From Paludibacteraceae bacterium (GTDB lineage: Bacteria > Bacteroidota > Bacteroidia > Bacteroidales > Paludibacteraceae), in the NCBI GenBank assembly GCA_017464025.1, contig JAFUEI010000057.1, positions 1-37,816 on the forward strand: a stretch of DNA of 37,816 bases, written 5' to 3'. Positions 1-36,641 of the stretch are shown piece by piece (the first letter of the stretch is position 1; each line of letters opens with the position of its first letter). The notes beneath the pieces are model-generated. The model did not search any database and had not been told where the DNA came from. It was given only the letters and a program-made list of their open reading frames with translations. The position numbers and the translations under genes were made by a program.

Positions 1-345
1 CAATCTCTTCGCCCCAACCATTGAACGTGTAAACAGTGCTCTCCGTCATGTAGTCTTCGACAGCAGGTGCACTCGGTACTACATTCCAGTCAACCTGTAC
101 GGTCGTGGCTTCACCCTTCACTATCCAGGTGATGTCGTACTGGCGGACGCTCTCCGTGAATTGAGCCGTGTAGGTCTTGTCGCCGCTGACGGCTACAATC
201 TCTTCGCCCCAACCATTGAACGTGTAAACAGTGCTCTCCGTCATGTAGTCTTCTACAGCAGGTGCACTCGGTACTACATTCCAGTCAACCTGTACGGTCG
301 TGGCCTCACCCTTCACAATCCAGGTGATATTGTATTGGTTGATGT
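1..345 (-). repeat. 195-bp near-identical tandem repeat (65 residues per unit) in the giant surface gene
   Basis: Bases 1-133 recur at 196-328 with only three differences (positions 59, 110 and 122 of the first copy), and similarity fades by about 150/345. The period is 195 bp, exactly 65 codons, so copy-number change keeps the frame. Each unit encodes an InlB/Flg_new-like repeat opening with ITWIVKGEATTVQVDW and closing with YTFNGWGEEI. The array continues off the window, so total copy number is unknown. Confidence 0.93.
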
Positions 346-9300: not shown

Positions 9301-12300
9301 TCTCCGTCAGCGATGCCTCCGTACCATCAGCAGCCGCACCATAGCGGTTGGCGTTCACCACTGACCAATCGCCGCTGAGGGTAGTGATAAAGCTGAAGAA
9401 ACCGTATCCTTCATATTCTGTCAAGGTTGCCTCAATGGTGTAGGTGCACGACTCTGCATCGTAAGTAAACTGCGGTGTCTGAGCCGGCGTCCAATTGTGG
9501 TCTTTAACATTGCCCAACAGGTAGAGCGAACTTACCGTTGCGGTCTGCCACTCGCCCGTGGACTTGGGGTTGGAAGTATCATTATCCACGTACTCATTGT
9601 TGGCATTGCCCCACGCGGTAATGGTATATACTTTTGTCAGGTCATCGGCCAGCGTGGCATCTACGGTCTGGTTCCAGCGGTCGTCCCAGTTGGGTGTGGT
9701 GGCCGTATTGTTCAGGCGTACGATGTTGAAGCCATCGATATTGCCAGGCACGGTCACGATGTAGCGGCCAAGGCAGTCCTGCTCTGAGAGGATGGCATTG
9801 CCTGCCCAAGCACCGATCTCGCCTATCCAGTACCATACGGCAAACTGTGCATCGCCGGTGTTCCATATATCCGGATTGAAGAGGAAGCTGACGTCAGCCA
9901 CCGGCGGAGCCGTAAGCTGCAGTTTGCCGAAGCCGGCATCGCCGCCCTTCGCGGTTTGCTCTATCGAAACGATATTGTTCTTGGTGGGGTCCAGCGTCAA
10001 CGTTGTAGCAACGCCGTTGTTGCCCGTCTTTATCATTTCGTCGGTAACAACACCGTTTACTTTCACTTCCACGGTTCTGTCAGCCACACTGCTGGTAAGC
10101 GTGAGTGAGCTTGCAGGCGGAAGGAACAGGTAGAGACGGTTGATACCGGTGGAGATGCGCTTGTTGGTCTGCAACTCTTGTCCTTGGGCAATACGCATTT
10201 TTCTTGTATCATCCCAAGGATACAATGCAAAGGCATAAGCCGGCACCTCCGTCAAAGTAATCTCGTCAGCCGTAAAGGTCATAGGAGTAATCTCCTGGGC
10301 GATGATGGTGTAGTCCTGATACTTGCCGTCTGCACCGGTGACGCGCAGCAGTTCGCCTTGCATAGCGGCAGTAGCGGTTGATTCGGCATCAACGGATCCT
10401 ACTCCACCGGCATCCCATTTGGTAAAGGCAGCAGAAACAAAGGTCGGCGCATCTTCACCTGCCATGTAAGGAATAGTGATTGTGTATTGCGTGGCATCAA
10501 TAGCGCCCTTCAGCCCGTTCGAGAAGACAACCTCGTACAGGTCTTTCGGCGCATCGGCCACCGTAAACTCTATAATATAGGTCTTGGTTGTCGTTTCGTC
10601 TTCGGCCGTCACCACATAGCGGAACTCGCAGGGGGCTTCCGTCGGTTCGGTCTTGTCCACCGTTGCACCGGCTGCGGGCGTAACCGTCACGGCAGGCAGT
10701 GCCTCGCCGTAGGCCAGCTCATAAGAATAGGTATAAACGCCGGTCTCTGCATCCTCCGCGAAAGCGGTCATCTCAACCGCCGTATTGCCGAGGCTGACAG
10801 CCGTGAGAGTAGCGTCGCTGCTCTTGGCCGAAGCATCCACCGTGACGGAGCAGGTTGCCGTGAACGAACCGTCGGCCGTCGTAACCGTAATCGTGGTGGT
10901 ACCACCTGCTACCGGAGTAACCAGTCCTTCGCTGCTTACGGTGGCTATTGTTTCATCAGCCGAAGTCCACGTCAGCTGCTTGTTGGTGGCATTGGCAGGA
11001 GCTATGGTAGCCGTCAGTTGCTCCGAATCGCTCAGACCTGCCAGCGTAATCTCGCTCTTGTCGAGCGTCACACCGGTAACTGCAATAGTCGGATAGGTAA
11101 GAGCCAACTCATAGAAACTCGAATTGCTGCTTCCTGCATTTACGCAATATACCACAACGGCATATTCTTGAGATGCATCCAGACTGGCCACCGACAATAT
11201 TGCCGGATTGCCCGTGCTATGGTCTTGACCTACGATATCACCCAAAGAAGGTTGCTCCGAAACATCATATTCAATCTTATATACATCTATATAATTATCT
11301 CTATCGGAATTTCCAGCTGTTAAAGCCTGTACTTGGATACAATTCTTTACACGGAACACATTTATTCGTTCCGAAACAGATTTCAATGTGGAATATCTTA
11401 CTTTGTCATCCGTTGTATTCCATTCTTTACTACCGCAGAAGACACTCTCCGACGGAGCAGACCATGTTGCAGTAGCCGAATTGGTACCAACCGCCCATGT
11501 CTGTTCGGCAGTATAGTAAGCCGCATAAGCAGAGAATACATAGACGTTACCTTTCTGCACGTAACCTTTGGTAGTGTTATTGGCAGTCGTCCATACGTCG
11601 CTTGCAAAATCAGGAAGAACCAATGCCGATGCAGGGAGAGTGGTTACATTCTCCTTTACACCGGTTACTGTGCCATGGAAGGTGGCTGCTGTTACCGTGA
11701 GCGTGAAAGCTTCTGACGTGGCGTTGCCGAAATCGTTGCTTGCCTTGACAGTATAAACAAACTCGCCCTGTGCAGCAGGCGTAAAGACATAGGTGGCGCT
11801 GTTGGCACCCGTTATTTCCTCACCGCCTACATACCACTGCCATGCGGTGGCATTGGCAGCCTCGCAGGTGAGCGTCACCTCTGTTCCTTCCTCTACGGAA
11901 GCCGAACCTGAGGTCTCCCCCATCTTTATCACGGCGCTCTCTACGGCGGCCTTGGCATTGACGGTGATGGTCACGGTCTCCTCTACGGCGCAGATGCCGT
12001 TGGTCTCATCAGCAGCTTGCGAGGCAGTGATGGTGTATTCACCTGCTGCGGTGGCGGTGAACTTGCCGTCTGCGATGCTGGCATCGGTTGTCACTTCACC
12101 ATCCTTCTTGATGGTATAAGAAACGGCATTCTCATTGGTAGAAGAGAAAGTGAGAGCCACCTCATCACCAACGTATGCCGTCGCCTCAGCAGAGAAGGTG
12201 ACGGCAGGAGTGGTGCAATCCGGTCCTGCCTTCAGTGCGATTTCGCATATTTGAGCATTGCTTGTAGTACTGCAATACATATATGCGATGTAATCAGTAG

Positions 12301-12808
12301 TGACAGACAAGTCCGAAAACAAAAATTCCGTATAAGTATTCCCTACGGATTTGGTTTCTATAGGAGTTTGGTTCGTTCCATCATACGAATACAATGCTAC
12401 ATATACTGTCCTATTTCCTCCAGATGTCACTAAGAACGAAATATCGGTCGCTCCTGTAAAACGTATTGCTTTGGTTCTTGCAGTAGATTGTACAGTTGTA
12501 ACAGTAGCTGAGTTAAGCGTATAAAACGGAGCAGTAAAACCACTGACATCAGATACGGTTGCACTTGTTGTATTCCATGCTAAAGCCGTAAACCATGTTA
12601 CCCCGGCATTCCTAATATCAGCATTGGGTTGCATGACAATCCAGCCGTCATCATCTGCCTCCATAAATGTCTGCGAAGACATATCCAAAGAAGTCTCTGG
12701 AATGTCAGGCAAGGTCATACCAGAAATCAAGTCAGTCTGGTTGGCCCACGCAGTGGCGAAGCCGACAAGCAGCATCAGCCATAGCGCAAAGAGTTTTTGT
12801 TTTTTCAT
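2..12808 (-). CDS. Giant secreted multi-domain surface protein (Ig-like, BIG2, starch-binding-like, InlB-type repeats), C-terminus outside window
   Basis: One minus-strand frame stays open for 4269 codons from the ATG at 12808 to the window edge. Residues 1-22 are a signal peptide (MKKQKLFALW then a hydrophobic core and AWA). Approximate modules: beta-rich N-terminal module 30-195; two Ig-like domains 198-373; BIG2-like domain 572-657; three cadherin-like beta-sandwich modules opening with DATL at 658-753, 1863-1953 and 1955-2043; starch-binding-like region 977-1493, including a CBM26-like stretch with a WPGEEM motif; divergent InlB B-repeats around 1500, 2425-2590, 3205, 3630 and 3890; two more BIG2 domains 2590-2762; two copies of an OB-fold-like module (about 3022-3202 and 3707-3887); Flg_new/InlB repeats (TGYTFTGWD-type) from about 3962 onward. 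The protein is probably an exported adhesin or glycan-binding surface protein. Its sorting signal, if any, lies outside the window, and the ligand is unknown. Domain names are from pattern recognition only. Confidence 0.88.
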   Translation of the reverse strand, partial: MKKQKLFALWLMLLVGFATAWANQTDLISGMTLPDIPETSLDMSSQTFMEADDDGWIVMQPNADIRNAGVTWFTALAWNTTSATVSDVSGFTAPFYTLNSATVTTVQSTARTKAIRFTGATDISFLVTSGGNRTVYVALYSYDGTNQTPIETKSVGNTYTEFLFSDLSVTTDYIAYMYCSTTSNAQICEIALKAGPDCTTPAVTFSAEATAYVGDEVALTFSSTNENAVSYTIKKDGEVTTDASIADGKFTATAAGEYTITASQAADETNGICAVEETVTITVNAKAAVESAVIKMGETSGSASVEEGTEVTLTCEAANATAWQWYVGGEEITGANSATYVFTPAAQGEFVYTVKASNDFGNATSEAFTLTVTAATFHGTVTGVKENVTTLPASALVLPDFASDVWTTANNTTKGYVQKGNVYVFSAYAAYYTAEQTWAVGTNSATATWSAPSESVFCGSKEWNTTDDKVRYSTLKSVSERINVFRVKNCIQVQALTAGNSDRDNYIDVYKIEYDVSEQPSLGDIVGQDHSTGNPAILSVASLDASQEYAVVVYCVNAGSSNSSFYELALTYPTIAVTGVTLDKSEITLAGLSDSEQLTATIAPANATNKQLTWTSADETIATVSSEGLVTPVAGGTTTITVTTADGSFTATCSVTVDASAKSSDATLTAVSLGNTAVEMTAFAEDAETGVYTYSYELAYGEALPAVTVTPAAGATVDKTEPTEAPCEFRYVVTAEDETTTKTYIIEFTVADAPKDLYEVVFSNGLKGAIDATQYTITIPYMAGEDAPTFVSAAFTKWDAGGVGSVDAESTATAAMQGELLRVTGADGKYQDYTIIAQEITPMTFTADEITLTEVPAYAFALYPWDDTRKMRIAQGQELQTNKRISTGINRLYLFLPPASSLTLTSSVADRTVEVKVNGVVTDEMIKTGNNGVATTLTLDPTKNNIVSIEQTAKGGDAGFGKLQLTAPPVADVSFLFNPDIWNTGDAQFAVWYWIGEIGAWAGNAILSEQDCLGRYIVTVPGNIDGFNIVRLNNTATTPNWDDRWNQTVDATLADDLTKVYTITAWGNANNEYVDNDTSNPKSTGEWQTATVSSLYLLGNVKDHNWTPAQTPQFTYDAESCTYTIEATLTEYEGYGFFSFITTLSGDWSVVNANRYGAAADGTEASLTESNALTAGEYTYKLPAAEYRFVVKADLSSFTATVLSGLTTYAVSFLDAEGETIVTGNYPESAVVTPPDAPASTTMKRFAGWALQGDEEQTIVTDFTVTAAATYVPVFTDAVYVVTGSNAALAGWTPASAPRFQLTEGTITAVVENIVLTDAMEYKVVDITSGEANSYIWYGDPEAADPGNFSEPLPQDGIGVYTATFTFNETTHLAAVTLVKTADYPGAVVNLLYPSEWFGSEWSGNPRIWAWQNESDNLFETWPGEEMTYSYLEEGQGDYFTYVFPADVTSVNVLFNNGNTEAMKQTANVLAVTGKKEYKLTGDVDGKGHYTVVEKDYYKVSVAEMQNGTVTVAEAWVKAGETATLTIAAAEDYLPSVLRYNGTAIELVDGQTEYTFTMPAEAVTVTAAFRFSQIAPAAENTYYLFGNDNQLTGEFQTGKEATAKLAVLGDEDPNYVNGIVPAGNTSLTGSNMKNADRWIRYDVKTTKTAFEITTYANNSSDIAYTIAYIKEAGDGAGTMANYSAENTTDYKAISKTVGTATYQIETAVNTSIYFYAPSNATKLEFLQIKAVESGEALPMAGEAGYEFNFNKGRLSSNKTVQTYEGLEILESAGYYSNSNAYVTIGTKGTNYLKFTTAAKVNLNVIPNNNAMFYVAADKDATGLEDADQQGGEKGTTYTIPVEAGTHYIVPAASLQLTKIFFSAYVLSDDATLKSLTIGDKAVDLADFAVDEQDATKLTIDYQLSYGTETLPEIAYEKNNEKASAADNGNTATDGATVITVTAEAGNTMTYTIRFSVNQTASTDATLKTITVAGAEVMLTEGTAQTYELRIYQPMPAAEDIVVATTDNNATVGTIEITDNVAAFTVTPESGAEAAVSYTLTFTRAAATQLQPVSEATTWDWADVVGSQLTLTATTLPALNTDFNFADIEGITYKEGFNAAALMGNGQRPTNGNNTSAQLLSLKFNTTVSGMVTITYSNTGNSNSNRWVTVNGVQVGEEAVGTTKRTTPATAVAAGEVVIATTENLLRFYKIEFTPATVYTVRFMDGETEIASTSYVEDATITVPADLEKENATFLGWYLSTDETQTIVDLTNATATADITYMAKWEQTAPAVDLYKLQKVTSVEAGKMYVFEQDGHVMTTVSSSAVQTTDAYLTKCIDISETIPAYIWTLETAETGFYMKNLSLEDNPYLANTSSTGVSAAASGSDWSFTFQTDETVIIQNNSNGNRFLGFTNATSYAYKAYATSNLSSTSYPHAINVYQLVAQTGTTYSVTVAESYTNGAVTATPSDCLFENDEVTLIATPSAGYKLNLASVKVGETSVTLAAVQGKENTYTFPMPAVSGTLALEFEELPKFDVTVATLTNGAIVADPATAVVEGATVTLTVTPAEHYQLKANTLTITDASENTVAYEATEGKYTFTMPASAVTVSAEFEAIAVQSVSLSGIGATLSLTTDEATYQFVAVVAPADALNPAVEWTSSNPTVATIDQTGLMTITGEGQTVITVASQENSELKAECTVTVSSTAIAVESIALDKDYIYLDVDGTTTIAVNYTPSDATDQTVTWSGLDEVVSIDAEGNITALKAGEITATATTANGKTAQVTIVVGEAAADGYVLTDIDDIAEGQEFVIAITREGDYAGTYAMRNDAASNAAPAATAVTVVNNTIAAPVAANLLWNVVKDATNGYMFTPNGDATKWLVMTNTNNGVRINTGDTKYFTFEEDANGNPYLKAATMARYLGVYNAQDFRCYNATSATNIKNQALGFYAKAPDPNAGSITVSPAKVDFGTLTYTGEALTGSEELTISSENLRGEIAVALAGDDVFSVGTLSEGKLTVSYNAAAAGTYTAMLTLTAQDKKTETIEKTVSISLSVLAPVTLAEFLESKPETATLIKDVQVTYVESATNVYVTDGTASIVIYDKDKKMSALTLVNGTILSGLQGTYTGYQRGDYVQPELVLTTIPVAGEGEAVLPKPMTEKPTEANFNEYLKFTEVQVTENGNYYIYDDVQLYQQGLDMTAGNIYTVEGILKPYVSGGNDIIELVLTADPVEKQYTITVPEADANGNKVEATATTATAGTQITLDVTVATGYKLTSLAWNGTALEIVKGQTQYTFQMPQADVQITAAFVEKTEPELTAVPAVIDFGTVKLKDAEGEQTISIIGENLNAEYGIDATITSVSSEHVAFALTGSTEGKVSLPATGGNLTVEFVADEAGEYTATLHLEAADEDAENEITLYVPVTLTVTAPVKVSGLTLSATEKQMLMTTTAILGVTVDNADEADDATYTVTSNADEIVGAELQNDGSVLLTAKQKGTATITVASTDGNAAATCEVSVDNKFTITFKDSGGESDTSTKRTTIDDIISSGADWVESLSDITNVYQARAGYGLKLGASSKIGSLTLNLAQTVKPAAVVVNAAAYNTAGQGIISVNGTEYDMKDFGVRGIVPVRVAYDGQTDLSAVNIATPEGGYRAYVMSFTVYMEETAYSISKGEMVNGDITIEPLTAKVGEEVALTLNPIDAGYELKSISVKQGENTVTVATDYSRFLMPEGDVVVTAEFAELPPMTIAEFIADENTPTVARRLNPLTVAYANGQNTYVKDETGWILIYDATKEIMGGELEGLPNGTVLTGLKGRYNDYLGQAEIFPTEAPSISQGEAVAPVEMTALPTVEDYNKYVIYTDVELTDGDSLKIGERKVKIYDKYQLGIPALKNALYTVKAEVIRQSGTEAVALAMTEAPAEKTYAISIDEQITNVKSFEVSKTTAIEGEVITVTFEADDCFGLAAGTLTANGTAIGHTDGVYTFTVGREDVVVSAAFEKLAYTVTFDFQNGEENEVRKDVECGTALTAPATPVKAATAQYTYTFREWSPALPATVSETQTYTALYDATVNSYSVTFYVDGEAYGDVQTVAYGAGATAPADPEKAGYTFTGWDADFDNIIGTTVVNATFSINQYTITYKVAGEEDVVKTYDYNAEVEKYTPAEKTGYTFSGWDATEPATMPATNLTFSGTYNINQYNITWIVKGEATTVQVDWNVVPSAPAVEDYMTESTVYTFNGWGEEIVAVSGDKTYTAQFTESVRQYDITWIVKGEATTVQVDWNVVPSAPAVEDYMTESTVYTFNGWGEEI

Positions 12809-25751: not shown

Positions 25752-27272
25752 CTATAACCGGAAGAAGCCGGCATATACGATACCTATCGAAACGGCCGGT
25801 TCGTCGTTGTAAATCTTACCGATGGTGCCGTCGTCCAGCACACCCTTGTTGAGGATGGCATAGCCGAACTCCGCCTTCACAGCCACCTCCTTGATGGGGA
25901 AATAGTTGATGCCCACCGTTGCCTTGTGGCGGCCGCAATAGCTGTACATCCAGTCTTTTGCGCCGTCAACCAGCAGACGGCTGTCGTAGAAGTCGTAGCG
26001 CCCGAACACGTAGAAGCGCATCCGCTTCTCGCGCAACCGCTCGTTGAAGTTGAAGAAGTCGTAGCCTACTTCGGCTCCGGCCGCCAGCGCATCGCTGGCT
26101 ACGGGTTCGCGGCTGGAGGGCGACGACTTGGTCATACTCAGGTTATAAGCCGTAATCTGCTTCGAGTCGGACAAATGCCCGTAGGTCACCGAGCCGCGTG
26201 CCACCCAGTTGTGGTCGTTATAGCAGAAATCGAAACTGCCGAGCGAGACGATGCCCTGCACTTCCTTGAACTTGGTCTTCTCCAGCTCCGTATAGCCCCT
26301 GCTGAGGGTGTTGCGGAACGAGTTGCCGCAATAGCCCGAAACAGAGAGCCGCAGCCCCTTGACACCGGTGTAGTCCACGCGGGCCACACCCGCCCAGCAG
26401 TTGGCCAACTTGAACTCATACGGGCTGCCTGCGCCGGGTTTGATCCAGTTCTTCTTGTTGAAGCGGTCGGAGTCCAAACCGGGCACGAGCATCAGCTGAT
26501 AGCGCCACCCCTTGGCCTGTCCCCAGAACGTGAGCGCCACTTCGTGCCACGTGGAAGGCAGGATGGTAAATTCGCCCTCGGGACGATAGACGGTGAAGAA
26601 CTCGGTGGGTTCATGGTGCGCATTCAGGCCGCCCACCGGGATAATCTGCATACCGGCACGGATGCTGGCATAGGGGTTGAAAGTCTTCTGAATCCAGAAC
26701 TGCTCCAGCGCCACCTCGCCGCCGCGTTCCACCTCGCTCTCATACTCGCCGCCTTCTTCCTCCTCTTTCTCAAAAGCCGACTCGGTGCCGCCATGTTCAA
26801 ACTCTATCTCGGTACCCATCGACCAGCCGCGGCCGAAGTCGTAGCCGAGCGAGATGACCACATGCGGCAGGTCCACTTCGCCGTAGTGGTCGCCCTTGTA
26901 TTTCTCAGGGTTGAAATAGCGCAGATAGTTGTGGGAATACATATTATAGCGTGCCATGGCTTCGCCATACCCACCAATAGTGAGCCTATTGTGAACCCAC
27001 GACGGACGCTCTTTGCGCGGCTGTACGGCAGGTGCATACTTGGCGGCACTGTCCGCACTGAGGGCAGTAGCACCCGACACGGCATCCACACGGGGAGTGG
27101 CTTCCGGACGCGACTCGGCAGCAGCCGCTTTCTGCTCAAGCGCCGCAAGACGTTGCAGAATAGACTGATACTCTTCCTGCGTGAGCGTCACTGCTCCTTC
27201 CTGGGCATGCAACGCAAGCGGCAGCAGGGCCGCCATGGAAAGAAGTATAGGAACAAGATATTTCCGAGACAT
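25752..27272 (-). CDS. Outer-membrane porin-like beta-barrel protein with N-terminal coiled coil
   Basis: The 506-residue protein starts with a signal peptide ending near ALHAQ (residue 24). A short coiled coil (about 28-55, EEYQSILQRLAALEQKAAAAE) and a proline-rich linker precede a predicted beta barrel from about 90 on, rich in alternating aromatic strands (TIGGYGEAMARYNM, HVVISLGYDFGRGW, RMRFYVFGRYDF). It ends in aromatic-hydrophobic residues plus RL, fitting an outer-membrane insertion signal. It resembles phosphate-selective or DcaP-like porins, but the substrate is unknown. I use the ATG at 27272, not the one at 27299, because the latter lies inside the -7 promoter box. It is the first gene of the porin-imelysin unit. 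Confidence 0.82.
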   Translation of the reverse strand: MSRKYLVPILLSMAALLPLALHAQEGAVTLTQEEYQSILQRLAALEQKAAAAESRPEATPRVDAVSGATALSADSAAKYAPAVQPRKERPSWVHNRLTIGGYGEAMARYNMYSHNYLRYFNPEKYKGDHYGEVDLPHVVISLGYDFGRGWSMGTEIEFEHGGTESAFEKEEEEGGEYESEVERGGEVALEQFWIQKTFNPYASIRAGMQIIPVGGLNAHHEPTEFFTVYRPEGEFTILPSTWHEVALTFWGQAKGWRYQLMLVPGLDSDRFNKKNWIKPGAGSPYEFKLANCWAGVARVDYTGVKGLRLSVSGYCGNSFRNTLSRGYTELEKTKFKEVQGIVSLGSFDFCYNDHNWVARGSVTYGHLSDSKQITAYNLSMTKSSPSSREPVASDALAAGAEVGYDFFNFNERLREKRMRFYVFGRYDFYDSRLLVDGAKDWMYSYCGRHKATVGINYFPIKEVAVKAEFGYAILNKGVLDDGTIGKIYNDEPAVSIGIVYAGFFRL

Positions 27273-27296
27273 GCGTATTGCTGTTTTTTTACAGCA

Positions 27297-27304
27297 CAAA
27301 AGTA
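27297..27304 (-). promoter_or_regulatory. -7 promoter element (TACTTTTG) for the porin-imelysin transcript
   Basis: The minus strand reads TACTTTTG, matching TAnnTTTG, about 25 bases before the ATG at 27272. The -33 element is weak (TTCG at an 18-base spacing). A GCTGT/ACAGC inverted repeat with a poly-A/T loop sits between box and start codon. Confidence 0.6.
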
Positions 27305-29382: not shown

Positions 29383-32300
29383 TTACTTCAGCAGTTGTCC
29401 CTGTGCATTGTAAACATGGCCGTTGCGGATGATGTAGAGCACACCGTTCTGCATCAGTTTCTCCACCTGCATCGTCCCGTTCCCGCCGTCCAGACCGGTA
29501 GGCGTCTTGGTGCCCGTGATGTGGGTGAGCTCGCCCAAACGGCAGTCTTCCTGTTTGCCGCCGAGGTTGTCAAGGCAGAAGTAAGCCGGCGTGGACATAC
29601 CCCATGCGTTGGCCTTGGTGCTACTGAGGGAGAAGGTCAGTTTGTCCACCTCGCCCAGTTTGCTCAGGTCAACCCACTGCCACTTCTCGGCATAGGTCCA
29701 GTCGTAGGTCGTATTGCTGTCGCGGAAGTCGGCAAGATAGACGTTCACGGCCTGCTCTGCCTTCACCTCGCCTTTATAGCCTTCTATCGTCAGCAGGAGA
29801 TAGTCGCCCTCGCCAAAGGGTTTGCCCGTAGAGCCGTCTTCTTCCACCGACTGACCGTCGCCGTTGCGGATAGCATCTATCACGTAGGTGTTGTTGGTAA
29901 CAGCCATACCGCTTACGGTCTGCGGCTTGGCCAGCGTCACGTAGTCGGCTCCGCCGTAACCCATGTTCCATATCGCATAGTTGTTGCCTTCGGCAGCACC
30001 GCCGGCAGCACTGTAATAAGTGGCATCAGGCAGCATCCAGCTGAAGGCCTGTGTGCTGGTTATGTTGGACATACTGAAGGCCGAGAAGTACCACATTCCA
30101 TAGTCGGAGATGATGGTGTTGAACGTGTAGTCGCCCGAGGTCCATGTGTTTTCGGGACCGGCGGTAAAGTCGGGGTCGTGGGTCCAGGCTGTCTCCTGCT
30201 TCAAGGTGCGCTCCTCGAAGGTGGCGGCACCGGTGAGCGGCTTCAAAGCTACGGATGCATGGAGCACGGTGTCGCTGCTGATGCTGCGGACGGTGTCACC
30301 CTCTGCGTTGTGGTACCAGCCGAGCACATTGTCGAACCACTTCTCGCCAAGCGTCATTGCTTCCGTGTAGTACACTGCCGTATCCCGTCCCTGCTCGATA
30401 TAGGTCACGGCAAAGAGCTTGTGGGCAGAACCTGCTACCGGATAGGGGTCAACACCGATTTGCTGGCCGAGACCGGTGATGTGGGCCAGCGTACCGTCGC
30501 ACATGGCGTCCTGACCCAGCACAACGGTCTTGTTGGCGGCATTGTTCTCGTTGTTGTAACCAAGAGCGGCGTAACCGTTCTCCAGTTTGCCATAGGAAGC
30601 CAAGCCGCAGACAGCACCGATAGTGGTAGCCGTCGTCACACTGCCCCAGGCATTGGTCACGCTGCGCATCTGCAGGGCACCGGCATTATACACGTTCTTG
30701 ATGGTGGTGCTGCCATTGCAGGTGCCTGCTATACCTCCCACAAGACCTGTTCCGCTGACAAACGCCCAGTTGTAGCAGTTGCGAACGGTGTCGGTAGCCA
30801 CATTGACGGTACCGGCAATACCGCCCGTGTTGGAAGCACCGAAGATATAGCCCTCTACGGTAGCTCCCACAACAGCTGCATTAGCTCCATAGACATAGCC
30901 TGCAATACCGGCGGTGTTGTTCTTGTTGGTGTTCACCGTACCAAGGAAGTGGAGGTTCTCCAGACGTCCTGCCTCAACTCCGCCTACGATACCGGCTGCG
31001 TGGGTGGTCGTCGAGGTTACATAGCCGTGAACGGTGAGGTTCTTGATAGTACCTTCTTTCAGTTTGCCGAAGAGCGACTGGTAGGTTTTCGTCGCCGCCA
31101 TATAAAAACCGCTGATGGTGTGGTTCTGTCCGTCGAAGGTGCCGAGGTAGGGTTTGGCGCTGGTGCCTATAGAGGTCCAGTTGTGTCCGCCAAGGTTGAG
31201 GTCAGCTGTCAGGACGGCGTTGAGAGCCACAGTGGCGGTGTCGGTGGCCTGTGCAAGCCATGCCAGTTCGGCCGGAGTAGCAATCTGATATACACTGTCC
31301 ACCATAGTCGGTTCGGTCACGGTGGTACCGTCCCATGCGATGGCGGCAACGGTCATCACGGGCTTCACCACCACGGTGTCGTTCTGCGACATCGAAACGG
31401 TGAAGGCACTGTGCAGCGGAGCGTAGCTCGCAGCTTCCACACTGTAGGTAAAGGCTCCGTAGATGACATCGTAGTTGCCGTTGACATCTGCTTCCAGCGT
31501 GTCCTGAGCGTCATTCATCACATACGTCTTTGCGCCTTCGGGCAGACCGCTGAAAACAACGGTGTGGTGCTTCAGACCCTCCACCTCGATGCTGACATCG
31601 GGCAGGATGCCGAGGTAGGTCTTGTGCGATGGAGCCGCGCCGGAGAACACGCGCCCGTCAATGCGTGAGATGTTACGATGGTTGCCGATGGGGTCGCCAA
31701 AACCGTTGATCTGAATGGTGCCGTCCGTAATGTCTGTCTTGCCGGCGGCATCCAAAGGAATAATGTACTTATAGAGTTGTGCACTCTCCACGGCGGCGAA
31801 GGTGTACTGTCCGGCCGAGCCATATTCGGACGTACCGGCAGGCACGCCGTTGTAGGCCACGTAGGCCGTCATGTTGTAGATACGCGACAGTTTGTTGTTC
31901 GGGTGGAACAGACCGTGATACTGAATAGCTACTTTATCACCGGCACGGAATGCTTCGCCCGGACGGGTGAGGTTGCTGATTTCGCGGGTGCAAGGTTTGG
32001 CGGTGATGACCTGATATTCGGCCACACCCTTTGCGTTGAACATCGCCACAATCTGGCGGCCCTCTTTCAGCGTCAGCGTGTAAGAGCCGTCCTCGTTGGC
32101 CTTCACTTCCTTATACTCTTTGTAGGTGGCGCTGTTGGTGCCGAAAGTCGGATAGGAGATATACACCTGAGCCACGCCTTCGGGTTTGAAGGTGTATTGG
32201 GCTGCGCTGTCTTCGGCCAGATAGTAAATCACGTCGTGCTCGGCATCCAGCGAGTCAGTGGCCAACTTGTGGGTATAGTCGTTCATGCCCTTGTTGGCCC

Positions 32301-33609
32301 ACATGTTGGTCTTGATGCCCGAAGGCTCGTCGCCCACGGTAACGACGAACACGCCGGTGTTCTCCGGCCAGATGGCCGACCAGTCGGCAGGCTTGCCTGC
32401 TTCGCCGCCCATATAGGGAGATACTTTGTCCTTGTCAATCTGCGAGGCCTGCATGGCATCGTAGGTGACCAGCACCACGGCCGTGCCTTTGCCCACAGCG
32501 CTCAGCGTAACCCACGGGTCGGTAGAGGTGGTGTAACGGTCGAACTTCACAACCGAATTGTCTTCCTCGCCCTTGAGGTTGAACACAGTGTAGTGATAGT
32601 CGGGATCCACATACATATTGGCAGTGCTGTTGTTAGTCAGTTGCCATGTACGCAGTGCCAGCACGTCCTTCGTATCGCCCACCTGCATCTTCAGGTGCCC
32701 CTGCGGGTTGATGTTGACAAACACGTCGGCCACGTTGAGGTTGCTGTTGGCCTTGATGTCGTGGTTGATGTACTTGGGCGAAAGGGCTTTCAATGTCTCC
32801 TCGGTATATACGAGGTCTTCCATACCCAGCACCTGGCTGATAGTGCCCGCCTGCGTGCAGAAGCCCTCGCCCCAGATGCGGTACATGAGGGTTGTGCTGC
32901 TGCTCTTGAGATCCATGCCGTAGTGATACACCTTGGTTGCGCCCGACGTAACAACGCTGTCCGGTGCAATCTCCGTAAAGGCCACATAGTCCTTGGTCTT
33001 CGTGGCCAACTGTGCGTATGCCGTGGCCGGCAAGGTGATGGTAAAGTCCTTGTGCTGCGGCAGAGCCACCCAGATGGTCGCATTCGAGTTGTGGGTGCGG
33101 TTTTCGGTATCCTTCCACTCGATGTAACCCTCTGCTGCACGAGCGGCGGTAGGAGTGGCTACGATGCTGGTCTTGGACCCCTTGAAGACAAGGAAAGTCT
33201 TTCTGCCGGCGGTCTTCGAGTCGCCGATAACCGTCTCGTAGGCGTTGCCTTTGGCGTCTTTCAGATTAAGCTCGAGCGTCAGGTCTGTCCCCGGCAAAAA
33301 GCCCGTGTTGGAGAAGCCGAGGGTGGCTGTCTGAATGGTGAACTCGCTGTCGCCTTCCACAACGAGCTCGATACTACCGTTCACGGTCTTGCCGTCGGTG
33401 TCATAGCCGGTCAGCACGTAGGTGCCGTTGTCAACGGTAAAGGTATAGACTTTGTTTGACGGTGTCCCGACTGCCACAGGCGTAGCCGTAGCTTTGTCGG
33501 CAAGCGTCATCGTGGTGCTGACGGTATTCATTGTCACCTTTACGGTGGCGGCATGCATACCCGCTACACTTGCCATCAGAAGGATGGCCGAGAAGAGTAA
33601 TTTTCTCAT
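29383..33609 (-). CDS. Large secreted protein with GLUG-like repeats and C-terminal DUF4465 domain, T9SS-like tail
   Basis: This 1408-residue protein has a signal peptide (1-20, ending GMHA). Residues 21-790 are beta-rich with no family I recognise, with EF-like Asp-rich patches but no clear catalytic motif. About 800-985 hold GLUG-type repeats (GIVGGVEAG, GIAGYVYG, GGIAGTVN, GGIAGTCN), a surface-protein repeat. About 1140-1348 form a DUF4465 domain (DYGMWYFSAFSMSN, GADYVTL, EGDYLLLTI, YFCLDNLGG). The last 45 residues end with NGVLYIIRNGHVYNAQGQLL, like short T9SS sorting tails. It is the last gene of the cobalamin-riboswitch operon, 21 bases after the preceding DUF4465 gene. A corrinoid-binding or surface-handling role is inferred from the riboswitch, and from my recollection that DUF4465 proteins are encoded in Bacteroides B12 loci. 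Confidence 0.85.
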   Translation of the reverse strand: MRKLLFSAILLMASVAGMHAATVKVTMNTVSTTMTLADKATATPVAVGTPSNKVYTFTVDNGTYVLTGYDTDGKTVNGSIELVVEGDSEFTIQTATLGFSNTGFLPGTDLTLELNLKDAKGNAYETVIGDSKTAGRKTFLVFKGSKTSIVATPTAARAAEGYIEWKDTENRTHNSNATIWVALPQHKDFTITLPATAYAQLATKTKDYVAFTEIAPDSVVTSGATKVYHYGMDLKSSSTTLMYRIWGEGFCTQAGTISQVLGMEDLVYTEETLKALSPKYINHDIKANSNLNVADVFVNINPQGHLKMQVGDTKDVLALRTWQLTNNSTANMYVDPDYHYTVFNLKGEEDNSVVKFDRYTTSTDPWVTLSAVGKGTAVVLVTYDAMQASQIDKDKVSPYMGGEAGKPADWSAIWPENTGVFVVTVGDEPSGIKTNMWANKGMNDYTHKLATDSLDAEHDVIYYLAEDSAAQYTFKPEGVAQVYISYPTFGTNSATYKEYKEVKANEDGSYTLTLKEGRQIVAMFNAKGVAEYQVITAKPCTREISNLTRPGEAFRAGDKVAIQYHGLFHPNNKLSRIYNMTAYVAYNGVPAGTSEYGSAGQYTFAAVESAQLYKYIIPLDAAGKTDITDGTIQINGFGDPIGNHRNISRIDGRVFSGAAPSHKTYLGILPDVSIEVEGLKHHTVVFSGLPEGAKTYVMNDAQDTLEADVNGNYDVIYGAFTYSVEAASYAPLHSAFTVSMSQNDTVVVKPVMTVAAIAWDGTTVTEPTMVDSVYQIATPAELAWLAQATDTATVALNAVLTADLNLGGHNWTSIGTSAKPYLGTFDGQNHTISGFYMAATKTYQSLFGKLKEGTIKNLTVHGYVTSTTTHAAGIVGGVEAGRLENLHFLGTVNTNKNNTAGIAGYVYGANAAVVGATVEGYIFGASNTGGIAGTVNVATDTVRNCYNWAFVSGTGLVGGIAGTCNGSTTIKNVYNAGALQMRSVTNAWGSVTTATTIGAVCGLASYGKLENGYAALGYNNENNAANKTVVLGQDAMCDGTLAHITGLGQQIGVDPYPVAGSAHKLFAVTYIEQGRDTAVYYTEAMTLGEKWFDNVLGWYHNAEGDTVRSISSDTVLHASVALKPLTGAATFEERTLKQETAWTHDPDFTAGPENTWTSGDYTFNTIISDYGMWYFSAFSMSNITSTQAFSWMLPDATYYSAAGGAAEGNNYAIWNMGYGGADYVTLAKPQTVSGMAVTNNTYVIDAIRNGDGQSVEEDGSTGKPFGEGDYLLLTIEGYKGEVKAEQAVNVYLADFRDSNTTYDWTYAEKWQWVDLSKLGEVDKLTFSLSSTKANAWGMSTPAYFCLDNLGGKQEDCRLGELTHITGTKTPTGLDGGNGTMQVEKLMQNGVLYIIRNGHVYNAQGQLLK

Positions 33610-33630
33610 GATGAAACGATTTTAGTTATT

Positions 33631-35112
33631 TTATGGAATGATGATTTTGTATGTCCGTTTGTCGGTCAGTACGATATAGATGCCCCTGCTCAGGTGCAGA
33701 CCGGTCCCGACAACTGTGCCGTCGGTGCGATATACGCCGCGCAGGGTCTCTCCTGCTTCAAGGCCGGTCAGCGCGGAGGGCTTGTCAGAGAGTGTGAAAG
33801 CCTCTATCGTGGTGCGGGCCGATTTGTTGCCTGCCGCATCTTCCGCCTCCACGGCAAAGCAGTAGCGTGTGGCGGGGTCAAGCCCCGTCAGGCGGCAGGA
33901 GGTGCCGTTCTTCACGCGCTTCTGCACCTCGCCGTCCACATAGACGCTGTAGCGCACCACACCCACATTGTCGGCGGCGGGCTGCCAGCTCAGCGTCATC
34001 GCCCGCAGTTCGGGCTGCGCCGTCAACCCCTCGGGGGCCGAGGGAGCGGTCAGGTCTGCCGTGGTGACTGCCACCGCCGCCTTGTCAGACGTGCCGCCTG
34101 CGGAAACGGCCTCCACTGCGAGCCGGTATTCCGTACCGGCCTTCAGACCGCGGAAGACGAACAGCGTGTCGGCCGTCGTACCGGCCGGCGTGTCGTTGCA
34201 ATACAGTTTATACGATGCCGCACCGGCGGTCTTGTTCCACGTCAGCACCACCGAGTCTTCCGCACCGGCCGTTGCTTTTAGACCTGTAGGCCGCGAGGGC
34301 ACCTGCTGCTCGGTATAGGGCAGCACCCGCAGCTTGTCCATACAGAAGAACACGGCCGTGTTGGCGCCCCACTTGGCATCTTTGTCGCTGGTCTCCATGG
34401 TGAAATACAGGCCGCTCACCGTGCCGAGTACCGTGAGGTCGAGCCACTGCCAGTCGGCCGACTGCACCAAAGCGCCGTTGCGGTATTCCGCCAGCGCAAG
34501 GCGCACCTCCGTGCCCGTGGACTCGCCCTGCTCGTTCAGGCCGTGCGCCACCAGGCCGAAATAGTCCCCCTCTTTGGTGAACGCACTGGCAAAGCCGTCG
34601 CCGTTCTCGTTGCCGTAGTAGGGCCAGGGGTGGTTGCAGATATATACGCCCACCGCCTTGTGCGGGCGCTTGTCGGTGAAGTCGATGCGCAGACTGTGGT
34701 AGGTTGCGTCGAAGGTCTCGTCCCAATAGCCCCAGTAGGCCACCAGATAGGGGGCACCCGCCTTCACGTTGAACGCGTTGTCCAATCCGCCTCCGGCCAT
34801 ACAGCCCCACTGGCGACTGACCCAGCCGTCGGAGTTGCCGGCACTGCCGTAGTTGGCATTGTCGCCCGATGTGCAGAGCGTGAAGCCGTCCCAATAGCCC
34901 ATGCCGTCGCCCGCATCCAGCGAGCCGGTATGCGAGAAACGGAACAGACCCGCCTCCACGTGCGCGTCGTTGTTATAGGTGTCTTTCCAGCAGCCGTCGG
35001 CCGTCTGCGGATAGCCGGACAGGTAGTTGCCAAGGTCGAGCGTAAGGGTGTCGGCTGCACAAAGCGCCAGCGCATAGCCAAGCAGCGGCAGGAGCAGAAG
35101 CGTTTTTCTCAT
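33631..35112 (-). CDS. Secreted DUF4465 protein with two fibronectin type III domains and T9SS-like tail
   Basis: This 493-residue protein has a signal peptide (about 1-20). Residues about 40-265 form a DUF4465 domain (GYWDGFTLC, GWVSRQWGCMAGGG, APYLVAYWGYW, WQWLDLTVLGTVSGLYFTME, AVFFCMDKL). Two fibronectin type III domains follow (about 272-352 and 357-442), then a tail (450-493) resembling a T9SS type A sorting domain (RGIYIVLTDKRTYKIIIP). The signal peptide lacks a good lipobox (LALC), so it is probably not a lipoprotein and instead uses T9SS anchoring or secretion. Its ATG overlaps the stop of the upstream gene by four bases (ATGA), indicating translational coupling. A corrinoid-binding role is inferred from operon context only. 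Confidence 0.87.
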   Translation of the reverse strand: MRKTLLLLPLLGYALALCAADTLTLDLGNYLSGYPQTADGCWKDTYNNDAHVEAGLFRFSHTGSLDAGDGMGYWDGFTLCTSGDNANYGSAGNSDGWVSRQWGCMAGGGLDNAFNVKAGAPYLVAYWGYWDETFDATYHSLRIDFTDKRPHKAVGVYICNHPWPYYGNENGDGFASAFTKEGDYFGLVAHGLNEQGESTGTEVRLALAEYRNGALVQSADWQWLDLTVLGTVSGLYFTMETSDKDAKWGANTAVFFCMDKLRVLPYTEQQVPSRPTGLKATAGAEDSVVLTWNKTAGAASYKLYCNDTPAGTTADTLFVFRGLKAGTEYRLAVEAVSAGGTSDKAAVAVTTADLTAPSAPEGLTAQPELRAMTLSWQPAADNVGVVRYSVYVDGEVQKRVKNGTSCRLTGLDPATRYCFAVEAEDAAGNKSARTTIEAFTLSDKPSALTGLEAGETLRGVYRTDGTVVGTGLHLSRGIYIVLTDKRTYKIIIP

Positions 35113-36365
35113 AGCTTGATGAACTTGCGGGTTTCACCGTTTGCAGTGCGCAGCAGATACATTCCCTGAGGCAGGCAAGAGCAAGGCAGATACGACGTGC
35201 CGGGATTGGTATTGGCAGAAAACAGGGGTTGGCCGGTCCTATCCAGCACTTGCACCTGCTCAGCCACAGAAGATGTATATATCAAGTTGTCGTGTACCAA
35301 TGTCGTCAGCAGACACAGCCCGCCCTTTCCTTGCTCCATCGGCAGGGCATCTTTGGCAGAGGCGGTGTCGGGCTCGTCGCCGCCCGTCAGATGCAGGTCG
35401 GCGGCACCCAGCACCTCGGTGGAGGTCTCGCCCAACCAGCCGCAATACTGCAGCACGCCGGTATAGACCTTCACGAAGTGGATGCCGGGCAGTTCAACGG
35501 ACTGACCCGTGCTGTCCACCGCCCATTCGATGTTCAGCTTCGAGGCCACGGTGCCGTTGGGCTGGTTGTCGGCATAGCCGTAGCGGTAGGCATACTGCAC
35601 GTAGTAGGAGCCGTTGCCGCTCTCGTCGGTATAGTTGTCAGGCAGGCGCGTGCCTGAGAACACCAAGGAGTCCGCATCGCTCCAGAGCGGCCAGTAGGAC
35701 TGCGTGTGCGAACTGTTGCGGCTGACGTAGCCTGTTCCGCCCTCGGAGTCGCGCCAACGTATGTAGGTAGTATCGGTCAGGTATTTGTAATCGTTGTCAG
35801 GCGTAGCCGTATGATCGGCCGGCGTGCGGTAGTAGGTCACGGTGTAGTGGTGGCGGGTGGCGGGGTTGTCATATTCCGAACCTGCCAGCTCATACCACGG
35901 GTCGTCAGGTTTGCCGTTGGCATTGCTGTCGTAGCTCACCATGACGATGCCCGGCTCGCTGCTGCCGCCCTGCCCCTGCTTGTCGGGATTGGGATTGCTG
36001 TTGGCCACAAAGGCGTTGCCGAGCACCTGCAGGTCCATGAGGCCGGACCGGTTCTCCACCATGTGGTCGAAGCCGAAGACGACGTAACCTCCCCATGAGC
36101 CGAGGCTTATCATCACCTGGGCATCGTCGGCCAGACACTCGTCGGCCTTGACGCGCATCATCGATGGCGAGTCGTCTTCTTCATATTCGGGCAACTCATT
36201 GACAAACTGGCCCGGAGCCGGGCAATACTCCCACACGCGGGCGATGTAGGGCGAGTCGGCGGCGGCCGAAACAGCCGCACCGATGCACAGCAACAGCAAA
36301 GCCGCTCTGCGCACAGCATAGCAACACAACATGGATCGTTTGTTTTTGAACGTTGTATGTCTCAT
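35109..36365 (-). CDS. Secreted surface protein, first gene of the cobalamin-riboswitch operon, T9SS type A-like C-terminus
   Basis: This 418-residue protein has a signal peptide ending near SAAA (about residue 36). The mature part opens with YIARVWEYCPAPGQFVNELP, followed by MISLGSWGGYVVFGFDH (about 85-101), SSEPGIVMVSYD and PDDPWYELAGSEYD, a set I recognise from Bacteroidota cell-surface proteins without assigned enzymatic function. The last 70 residues (VQVLDRTGQPLFSA to GMYLLRTANGETRKFIKL) are a T9SS type A sorting domain. The ATG at 36365 abuts the riboswitch expression platform; an alternative ATG at 36332 would still leave a signal peptide. It is translationally coupled to the DUF4465 gene. 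Family membership in B12-related loci is recollection, not verified. Confidence 0.85.
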   Translation of the reverse strand: MRHTTFKNKRSMLCCYAVRRAALLLLCIGAAVSAAADSPYIARVWEYCPAPGQFVNELPEYEEDDSPSMMRVKADECLADDAQVMISLGSWGGYVVFGFDHMVENRSGLMDLQVLGNAFVANSNPNPDKQGQGGSSEPGIVMVSYDSNANGKPDDPWYELAGSEYDNPATRHHYTVTYYRTPADHTATPDNDYKYLTDTTYIRWRDSEGGTGYVSRNSSHTQSYWPLWSDADSLVFSGTRLPDNYTDESGNGSYYVQYAYRYGYADNQPNGTVASKLNIEWAVDSTGQSVELPGIHFVKVYTGVLQYCGWLGETSTEVLGAADLHLTGGDEPDTASAKDALPMEQGKGGLCLLTTLVHDNLIYTSSVAEQVQVLDRTGQPLFSANTNPGTSYLPCSCLPQGMYLLRTANGETRKFIKL

Positions 36366-36416
36366 CCTGCCTGCCCCAGTCCGCGAGGGCGTGTTAGCAT
36401 TTAACCATCAGGCAGG
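36366..36416 (-). promoter_or_regulatory. Riboswitch expression platform sequestering the start codon region
   Basis: The 3' end of the B12 box (CCTGCCTG on the minus strand, 36409-36416) is perfectly complementary to CAGGCAGG (36366-36373), the eight bases directly before the ATG at 36365. A smaller GCCC/GGGC pairing lies inside. Formation would occlude translation initiation, and it competes with aptamer pairing of the B12 box. There is no U-run, so control is more likely translational than by termination. The direction of the switch cannot be fixed from pairing alone. Confidence 0.65.
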
Positions 36417-36592
36417 TCTTCCGGCTTGTCTCCCCTGTTTCGTGCCTTCCCACCTGCGGTAACAAGCAGTGGCAAAAAGATTTCCGAAACACGGTTAGTA
36501 AGACTTACGGCTGCGGGACAGCGAATGATTCGCACATTCTTCCCTTTTAATTGTCACCCGCCGGCGGCGGGCAACAAACCATAACGGCACAA
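36405..36592 (-). ncRNA. Cobalamin riboswitch
   Basis: The minus strand carries the conserved cobalamin-riboswitch elements in order: AAAAGGGAAGAATGTGCGAA (about 36530-36549), GCTGTCCCGCAGCCGTAAG (about 36505-36523), GCCACTG (about 36468-36474), CAGGTGGGAAGGC (about 36443-36455) and the B12 box AGCCGGAAGACCTGCC (36411-36426). This RNA aptamer binds adenosyl- or other cobalamins and usually represses the downstream genes. It precedes the three-gene secreted-protein operon directly. Ends are approximate. Confidence 0.95.
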
Positions 36593-36610
36593 CTCTTCTG
36601 AATTGCGCTG

Positions 36611-36641
36611 CGAAGGTAGTGTTTTTTCTCGACATGTGCAA
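36611..36641 (-). promoter_or_regulatory. Promoter of the cobalamin-riboswitch operon
   Basis: On the minus strand TTG (36639-36641) is 20 bases upstream of TACCTTCG (36611-36618), one mismatch from TAnnTTTG. Transcription would start near 36604, just before the riboswitch. Confidence 0.6.

Follow-up and report, generated by a model that had tools for sequence, protein, structure and literature searches.

Studies of how gut Bacteroidota capture B12 have relied in the main on Bacteroides lipoproteins. The 37,816-nucleotide stretch of Paludibacteraceae DNA analysed here (the window) raises the question of what a cobalamin riboswitch does when the genes behind it encode three putatively secreted proteins with tails like those of type IX secretion system (T9SS) cargo. 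We consider it probable, from the domains and comparative evidence set out below, that the locus functions as a B12-regulated capture unit, whose T9SS-displayed binders would pass corrinoid to a separately encoded BtuB-BtuG.

Organization of the riboswitch locus

The features of the locus are listed in window coordinates.

36641-36611, minus strand: TTG-n20-TACCTTCG, candidate promoter
36599..36394, minus strand: cobalamin riboswitch aptamer (RF00174), 28 bases 5' of the first start codon
36366..36373, minus strand: CAGGCAGG, the 8 bases immediately 5' of the P1 start codon, candidate expression platform
36365-35109, minus strand: P1 gene, 418 aa; its product (35109..36365) has a signal sequence (Sec-type, by eye), a BtuH-type domain at about residues 35-330 and a type A T9SS tail
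35115..35285, minus strand: P1 T9SS type A sorting domain (TIGR04183), residues 362-417
35112-33631, minus strand: P2 gene, 493 aa; its product (33631..35112) has a signal sequence (Sec-type, by eye), a DUF4465 (BtuJ-type) domain, two fn3 domains and a divergent type A-like tail
34333..34899, minus strand: P2 DUF4465 domain, with Phe in place of the binding-loop Tyr (GANTAVFF)
33609-29383, minus strand: P3 gene, 1408 aa; its product (29383..33609) has a signal sequence (Sec-type, by eye), a large N-terminal module, a repeat region, a DUF4465 domain and a short C-terminal tail
31579..33552, minus strand: P3 N-terminal module, residues 20-677, about 650 residues
29563..30105, minus strand: P3 DUF4465 domain, binding-loop Tyr retained (GMSTPAYF, by eye)
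29386..29487, minus strand: P3 short C-terminal tail, of the kind that replaces type A tails in homologues
29360-29328, minus strand: strong intrinsic-terminator-like hairpin of 15 pairs with a T-rich tail, directly 3' of the P3 gene

The genome yielded a single RF00174 match, the aptamer listed above. It scored 87.3 bits (gathering score 31.5; E 2e-20) and spanned all 189 model positions (1-189), which bears out an earlier, sequence-only reading that had called a full cobalamin riboswitch here. The coordinates also agree with the tight packing described in that reading, with a 4-base overlap between P1 and P2 and a 21-base gap between P2 and P3, and the three-gene operon indeed has no gene for a TonB transporter, nor for BtuG or ABC components. 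A Sec-type signal sequence, claimed for all three proteins, can be recognized at each N-terminus, although the basis for this is inspection by eye. The promoter fared less well: TTG-n20-TACCTTCG is present and matches the Bacteroides-type consensus, but the window contains the same pattern six times on the minus strand and three times on the plus strand, so that the candidate is plausible and, by itself, weak. A sigma-70 scan detected no promoter immediately 5' of the riboswitch on the riboswitch strand. The bases preceding the AUG, CAGGCAGG (36366-36373), are fully complementary to CCTGCCTG (36409-36416) in the 3' strand of the aptamer, a pairing that could in principle reverse the direction of the switch.

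B12-binding domains

P1 had been regarded as merely accessory; overlooked in that view was its B12-binding domain of the BtuH type, homologous to the H-domain of BtuH2 and BtuG1 (8blw_B, 5e-67; 7biz_A, which is BtuH2, 2e-37). Six polar contacts with B12 have been described for BtuH2 (PMC8941943). Sequence alignment places Gln333, Asn399, His476, Tyr510 and Trp577 of BtuH2 at Q53, N117, H220, Y254 and W310 of P1, giving five identical contacts of the six; a Tyr replaces the sixth, Trp511, and we count this against the preferred explanation. Among 33 aligned relatives, the five residues are conserved in 33, 33, 33, 23 and 30, respectively. Characterised BtuH members are surface lipoproteins, and P1 has no lipobox by pattern.

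DUF4465 was assigned correctly to two of the three genes, for PF14717 (gathering score 25 bits) matched P2 at 99.3 bits (E 4e-28) and P3 at 137.6 bits (E 8e-40). Both proteins match structure 9fct, and P2 also matches 9hmu; each structure is a B12 complex. The link between DUF4465 and B12 is in print, binding having been reported in eight members and presented as a trait common to the family (PMC13398666). At the position of the P2 Phe, 18 of 19 aligned proteins carry the B12-binding Tyr, which again counts against the preferred explanation. Since P1 has a BtuH domain and P2 and P3 have DUF4465 domains, B12-binding folds are present in all three proteins.

BtuB-BtuG and related operons

The absence of BtuB and BtuG noted in the sequence-only reading applies to the operon but not to the genome, in which btuB lies on a separate contig (G000:C1:919-3042) together with a gene for a BtuG-like lipoprotein; we accordingly rejected the idea of a genome without an outer-membrane B12 transporter. 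No recognisable riboswitch was found on the btuB-btuG contig. Neither a PF02310 (B12-binding-domain) enzyme nor NrdJ was found in the genome, whose assembly is 89% complete, another observation that we count against the preferred explanation.

A search for similar loci, proposed in the earlier reading, showed that the arrangement has parallels: riboswitch operons with tailed binders and without btuB were recovered repeatedly in the genus, and a few more in other Bacteroidales. Within the genus sample of 61 genomes, 32 riboswitch operons encode a binder and no BtuB, and in 19 of these, from 17 genomes, a binder has an HMM-detected tail. Operons were delimited automatically (first gene at most 450 bases from the riboswitch, next at most 260), and the gene-content counts are lower bounds because 5 of 78 riboswitch sites had no called frame and some operons end at contig ends. 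In three relatives (L051, L054 and the genus member G048), the same gene order occurs inside a btuB operon, with the trio after btuB.

These relatives bear on the likeliest alternative, namely that the trio are soluble or vesicle-borne scavengers, released into the medium to hoard B12 from competitors rather than to feed the cell's own BtuB. The uncoupling of the trio from btuB would fit such a role, as would the missing PF02310 enzyme and NrdJ and the report that, in B. thetaiotaomicron, cells obtain B12 from vesicles carrying BtuJ1 or BtuJ2 (PMC12751083). We nevertheless regard it as improbable, given that btuB-btuG is present and that the same gene order shares one operon with btuB in the three relatives.

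C-terminal tails and lipoboxes

T9SS-like tails had been claimed for all three proteins. By the model, the claim stands for P1 only, its tail scoring 26.7 bits with TIGR04183 (cut-off 23); P2 and P3 gave no match to this model at E<=0.01, which counts against the preferred explanation. The C-terminal end of P2 does align with the type A tails of its family, whereas P3 ends in a short tail; among homologues, type A and short tails interchange at the same place. A profile of 13 tails, including those of P1 and P2, matches 8glk_D and the C-terminal domain of mirolase, but the profile of P3-type short tails matched no solved structure at E<=1, a further point against. The genome encodes T9SS machinery, with SprA/Sov at 2666.8 bits and PorU at 1034.7 bits. 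Among 14 control genomes, TIGR04183 matches occurred in 3 (above the cut-off in 1) and SprA in none; since such matches occur in genomes without a SprA match, the presence of a tail is not in itself proof of export.

We then compared tails with lipoboxes in three families of sampled relatives, using home-made profiles and patterns. The numbers of distinct complete proteins with both lipobox and HMM-detected tail, tail only, lipobox only and neither are, in that order:

BtuH: 0, 32, 55, 27
DUF4465: 4, 39, 15, 6
BtuG-type propellers: 1, 36, 85, 11

The two features are nearly mutually exclusive in each family. Fisher p values for the split are too small because the proteins are related, and HMM counts are given first because a loose tail pattern yields some false matches (e.g., in G022). 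We rejected a real dual anchor for the five HMM-tailed proteins with a lipobox: in four of them, all DUF4465 proteins, the Cys appears, by eye, to lie inside a normal signal sequence, and the fifth, a propeller (L062), is ambiguous. Frequent back-and-forth between lipid and T9SS anchoring was also rejected, for a quick tree of the BtuH domain requires only four changes between tailed and lipoprotein states among 99 labelled rows, and well-supported branches force two of the four; the tree has 123 rows, 24 of which are unlabelled, the labels include the loose tail pattern and the tree carries a long-branch warning.

More than 70% of DUF4465 proteins have been described as lipoproteins, the remainder being assigned periplasmic targeting signals (PMC13398666, 2026). 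We sampled 80 distinct, complete DUF4465 proteins, most of them from a single genus and from BtuH loci. No lipobox was present in 59, of which 39 had an HMM-detected T9SS-like tail at the C-terminus, and the same split recurs in BtuH and BtuG-type proteins. A second alternative is that the tails of P1-P3 are not export signals and that the proteins stay in the periplasm, the fate suggested by the published wording for non-lipoprotein DUF4465 members. Although the TIGR04183 misses of P2 and P3 and the tails in control genomes without a SprA match also favor it, we think it quite unlikely in view of the near-exclusion of tail and lipobox in three families, the interchange of type A and short tails, the T9SS machinery and the P1 score above the cut-off. 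The pattern suggests instead that T9SS tails replace the usual lipid anchor, as a second way to display B12-catching proteins on the surface.

The N-terminal module of P3

Residues 20-677 of P3, the N-terminal module, matched no Pfam family. Eleven of the module's 14 copies in the genus sample stand behind cobalamin riboswitches and the remaining three adjoin contig ends; 13 of the 14 are in B12 loci, the context of the fourteenth being unreadable. The module marks out a large family, linked to B12 loci, that has no annotation. Compared with solved structures, the P3 family profile matches a putative IgA1 protease (3n6z) at positions 772-1034, which places this match outside the module; a weak match inside the module has an E of 0.53. 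It is very improbable that P1-P3 serve as surface adhesins of a general kind or as binders of carbohydrate, with B12 domains that take a different ligand, since the P2 fn3 domains and the 3n6z match that would favor this are set against a cobalamin riboswitch, BtuH and DUF4465 homology with mostly conserved contact residues, and the placing of the P3 module in B12 loci.

Discussion

The capture-unit explanation starts from what the DNA itself contains: the riboswitch, the domains, the largely conserved BtuH2 contacts and the tail of P1, the T9SS genes, an unlinked btuB-btuG and the recurrence of the arrangement. From these we infer the switch direction, export, surface location, binding and hand-over, as follows. 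When corrinoid is scarce, the riboswitch would permit expression of the mRNA, as is usual for this class. P1, P2 and P3 would cross the inner membrane by Sec, and the type IX system would recognise their C-terminal tails and move them over the outer membrane, where they would either be fixed to the surface by the PorU sortase or be released into the medium. The BtuH domain of P1 and the DUF4465 domains of P2 and P3 would there catch corrinoid and hand it to BtuB-BtuG, made from the separate locus. The central proposal of the sequence-only reading, that B12-capturing proteins under a cobalamin riboswitch are displayed by the T9SS instead of as lipoproteins, is in this way supported by sequence and comparative evidence.

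A broader possibility, which we offer tentatively and hold somewhat doubtful, is that T9SS-bearing Bacteroidales have a second, lipid-free layer of B12 capture, uncoupled from the transporter and made up of tailed BtuH-, BtuJ- and BtuG-like proteins and a new P3-module family dedicated to the handling of corrinoids; riboswitch control would, in some species, extend to that layer only, and BtuB-BtuG would be made regardless of B12. Functional tails would give the same binders a second route to the surface, with testable predictions as to where B12 is caught, whether the catchers are shed and how BtuB is fed under separate regulation.

The Bacteroides btu loci (btuB-btuG with btuH/J/K/L) likewise place surface corrinoid-binding proteins under a cobalamin riboswitch; the operon described here differs from them in that it encodes neither a TonB transporter nor BtuG or ABC components, with btuB-btuG unlinked and lacking a recognisable riboswitch. 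P1 shares its B12-binding domain and predicted cobalamin riboswitch control with BtuH2 (BT_1956) and the C-terminal domain of BtuG1 (BT_1490) of B. thetaiotaomicron. Known BtuH proteins, however, are lipoproteins with a C-terminal binding domain, whereas in P1 the domain is near the N-terminus and a T9SS tail stands at the end. The P2 and P3 domain is that of BtuJ1 and BtuJ2 (DUF4465, PF14717, IPR027828), which are riboswitch-regulated in B. theta and for which B12-bound structures are available (9fct, 9i2l, 9hmu). BtuJ1 and BtuJ2 are lipoproteins, whereas P2 and P3 lack the lipobox pattern and have extra domains and T9SS-like tails, and the conserved binding-loop Tyr of the BtuJ family (NTPAY) is Phe in P2 and Tyr in P3. 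Type A T9SS cargo (TIGR04183/PF18962) resembles P1 in combining a signal sequence with a C-terminal sorting domain, and the P1 genome has SprA and PorU; in contrast to such cargo, the tail of P3 is shorter and is missed by TIGR04183, and the predicted cargo here is a vitamin-binding set under a riboswitch.

Organization of the riboswitch operon

The sole Rfam match within the window is a complete cobalamin riboswitch (RF00174; 87.3 bits, E 2e-20), which is also the only riboswitch of its kind found in the organism's own genome, an assembly of 71 contigs and 2.11 Mb that is 89% complete. As the sequence-only reading had described, this full riboswitch precedes three tightly packed genes, here designated P1, P2 and P3, with a 4-base overlap between P1 and P2 and a 21-base gap between P2 and P3. 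Because a terminator-like hairpin follows P3, the trio has the look of a self-contained unit.

Features of the operon (window coordinates)
36641-36611, minus strand: candidate Bacteroides-type promoter, by fit to consensus
36599-36394, minus strand: cobalamin riboswitch
36365-35109, minus strand: P1, 418 aa
35112-33631, minus strand: P2, 493 aa
33609-29383, minus strand: P3, 1408 aa
29386-29487, minus strand: P3 short tail, ca. 26 residues, missed by TIGR04183
29360-29328, minus strand: terminator-like hairpin of 15 pairs, directly 3' of P3

The promoter proposed in the same reading fared less clearly: 36641-36611 fits the Bacteroides-type consensus, but the pattern has six matches on the same strand of the window and three on the other. 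The 8 bases preceding the P1 start codon can pair in full with the aptamer 3' strand (36366-36416), and similar pairing precedes a candidate AUG at four more sites in the sampled genus genomes (G012:C1, G016:C21, G039:C5 and G049:C3). Over 78 riboswitch sites, the mean length of the longest complement is 5.0 bases, versus 3.8 in shuffled sequence.

Two other features of the window were recorded. An outer-membrane barrel-like protein is encoded three genes after the trio (25752-27299), and a look-alike with a similar C-terminus, as judged by eye, lies directly after a P3 homologue in another genus genome (G010; L294 271-1785). One reading frame (2-12808, minus strand) stays open for at least 4269 codons and runs off the contig start.

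P1 resembles BtuH, and P2 and P3 carry DUF4465

P1 looked anonymous because no Pfam domain matches it at E<=0.01. It aligns by sequence with the C-terminal region of 8blw_B (annotated "YncE family protein"; 5e-67), which we take to be BtuG1, and with 7biz_A (2e-37). PMC10404256 identifies 7biz_A as BtuH2 and describes an H-domain fusion in BtuG1. The B12 contacts of BtuH2 listed in PMC8941943 (Gln333, Asn399, His476, Tyr510, Trp511 and Trp577) map by sequence alignment onto P1 Q53, N117, H220, Y254, Y255 and W310, taking chain numbering to differ from protein numbering by 100, as deduced from the P1 alignment; five are identical and Trp511 is replaced by Tyr. Of 33 aligned, hand-picked relatives, 33, 33, 33, 23, 23 and 30, respectively, share these residues of P1 (the set comprises P1, 18 with the domain near the N-terminus and 14 of lipoprotein type).

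The earlier assignment of DUF4465 to two of the three proteins was confirmed for P2 and P3. Both have matches among DUF4465 structures, of which 9fct (P2 and P3) and 9hmu (P2) are B12 complexes. PMC13398666 reports B12 binding for eight DUF4465 members and states that 97% of homologues keep a Tyr in the binding loop. Inspection by eye shows that P3 retains this Tyr; P2 has Phe in its place, the sole such case among 19 aligned.

Residues 20-677 of P3 match no Pfam family. This module occurs in 14 copies in 11 of 61 genus genomes, and 11 copies are preceded, on their own contig and strand, by a cobalamin riboswitch over cut-off. The remaining three all sit next to a contig end: one belongs to a btuB operon, one comes after a DUF4465 gene and one is without readable context.

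Sorting tails and secretion machinery

Of the T9SS-like tails ascribed to all three proteins, only that of P1 is recognised by the model: its C-terminus is a TIGR04183 domain (26.7 bits; cut-off 23). The C-terminus of P2 can be aligned to the type A tails found in its family; neither P2 nor P3 matches TIGR04183 at E<=0.01, and the P3 tail is short. A profile of 13 tails, P1 and P2 included, matches the lipase C-terminus 7pzj, 8glk_D and the mirolase C-terminal domain, as well as some chance-looking WD-repeat proteins and one designed-looking protein. One T9SS translocon paper (PMC10994853) contains the term 8GLK.

The P3 tail has the consensus K-x-L-x-N-G-x-x-x-I-L-R-x-G-x-x-Y-N-x-x-G and could be a T9SS sorting signal that has so far escaped recognition. 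Tails of this kind occur instead of a type A tail in P1 homologues and are also found on other secreted proteins.

Short tails of the P3 kind in locus L153
11316-11417
14666-14767
18110-18211

Such tails of ca. 26 residues terminate many of the secreted proteins encoded at the loci covered here.

The own genome encodes SprA/Sov and PorU, and TIGR04183 matches it 25 times at E<=0.01, with 18 of these matches exceeding the cut-off; SprA/Sov is present in 57/61 genus genomes. Among 14 control genomes, SprA was matched in none and TIGR04183 in three (over cut-off in one), which speaks against a simple reading of the tails; since these matches occur where SprA is unmatched, tails may persist without T9SS. 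In Bacteroides nordii, a protein of 1421 residues (L081 12697-16962) has its BtuH domain in the interior and ends in a TIGR04183 tail.

Lipid anchors and tails in related binders

Lipoboxes and tails were tabulated for distinct complete proteins at loci from the genus sample and from a genome collection, of whose 579 confirmed relatives 80 were retained.

Anchor signals as both / tail only / lipobox only / neither, with Fisher p values, which are too small because the proteins are related to each other; loose-pattern-only tails (18 BtuH, 16 DUF4465, 29 propellers) are left out
BtuH: 0/32/55/27; 2e-12
DUF4465: 4/39/15/6; 8e-7
BtuG-type propellers: 1/36/85/11; 1e-21

By eye, the Cys of the four DUF4465 proteins with both signals apparently lies within an ordinary signal sequence; the one such propeller (L062) is ambiguous. 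In 29/32 HMM-tailed proteins, versus 11/82 without any tail, the start of the BtuH domain lies before residue 90, a placement to be expected if tailed and untailed forms are anchored at different ends. A quick BtuH tree requires four changes between tailed and lipoprotein states among 99 labelled rows, two of them forced by well-supported branches. So few changes suggest an old split rather than frequent switching.

Tailed binders recur behind cobalamin riboswitches

Riboswitches over cut-off were found in 41/61 genus genomes (78 sites), and an automatic operon rule, which yielded some operons cut by contig ends, placed a recognised B12 gene behind 57 of them. These operons include btuB in 25 cases, 13 also with an HMM-tailed binder; the other 32 have a BtuH or DUF4465 gene without btuB. 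A binder tail was detected by HMM in 19 of these 32 (17 genomes), rising to 26 (20 genomes) with the loose pattern.

Among named genomes, a riboswitch was found at 14/17 loci scanned; the three others (L056, L098 and L123) begin with a contig end that is close to the operon or within it. The trio recurs beside cobalamin riboswitches in other Bacteroidales, a check proposed with the sequence-only reading: in L051 and L054, riboswitch, btuB and a propeller gene are followed by close-set P1, P2 and P3 homologues, with two further genes in between and a third-protein homologue lacking DUF4465 in L051. L052 and L053 keep this order with gaps of 0.7-1.2 kb, P1 and P2 being fused in L053. Within the genus, G048 has the trio behind btuB, and in G032 a P3 homologue of 57% identity comes after a gene in which P1 and P2 are fused. 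Tailed binders directly follow the riboswitch, without btuB, in L064, L065 and L090. In L061, a cobalamin riboswitch (8550-8755) lies between btuB and propeller-BtuH-DUF4465 genes, with the binders behind it and btuB not.

The transporter locus and B12 use

The btuB of the own genome (contig C1, 919-3042; 52% identical to L051 BtuB) is followed by a BtuG-like propeller lipoprotein gene, and the pair, within G000:C1 1-4232 (L153), starts 51 bases after polA. The first 20 kb of this contig gave no Rfam match even at E 1. Among 14 close btuB orthologues scanned, one lacks upstream sequence; of the 13 with ca. 0.4-1.5 kb upstream, a cobalamin-type riboswitch precedes btuB in six and is absent from seven, the own genome included. 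With a riboswitch before the trio and none recognisable before btuB, B12 appears here to regulate the catchers rather than the transporter.

Despite these uptake genes, neither a PF02310 B12-binding-domain enzyme nor NrdJ was found in the 89%-complete genome; a B12-using gene may sit in the missing tenth. PF02310 matches occur in 45/61 genus genomes (39 over cut-off) and NrdJ in 18/61 (17 over cut-off).

Comparison with known systems

T9SS-exported B12 binders were not described in the titles or abstract beginnings searched, a set without preprints and most subscription papers, and the term T9SS is absent from the main text of the B12 papers examined for it. BtuG and T9SS co-occur in a BAM complex paper (PMC12578637), and the match for cobalamin riboswitch with T9SS concerned a riboswitch before a TonB transporter in Flavobacterium. 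A relay from BtuJ through BtuH to BtuBG has been proposed for B. theta (PMC12751083). The proteins described here would pass B12 along in the same order, BtuJ to BtuH to BtuBG, but from a different anchor.
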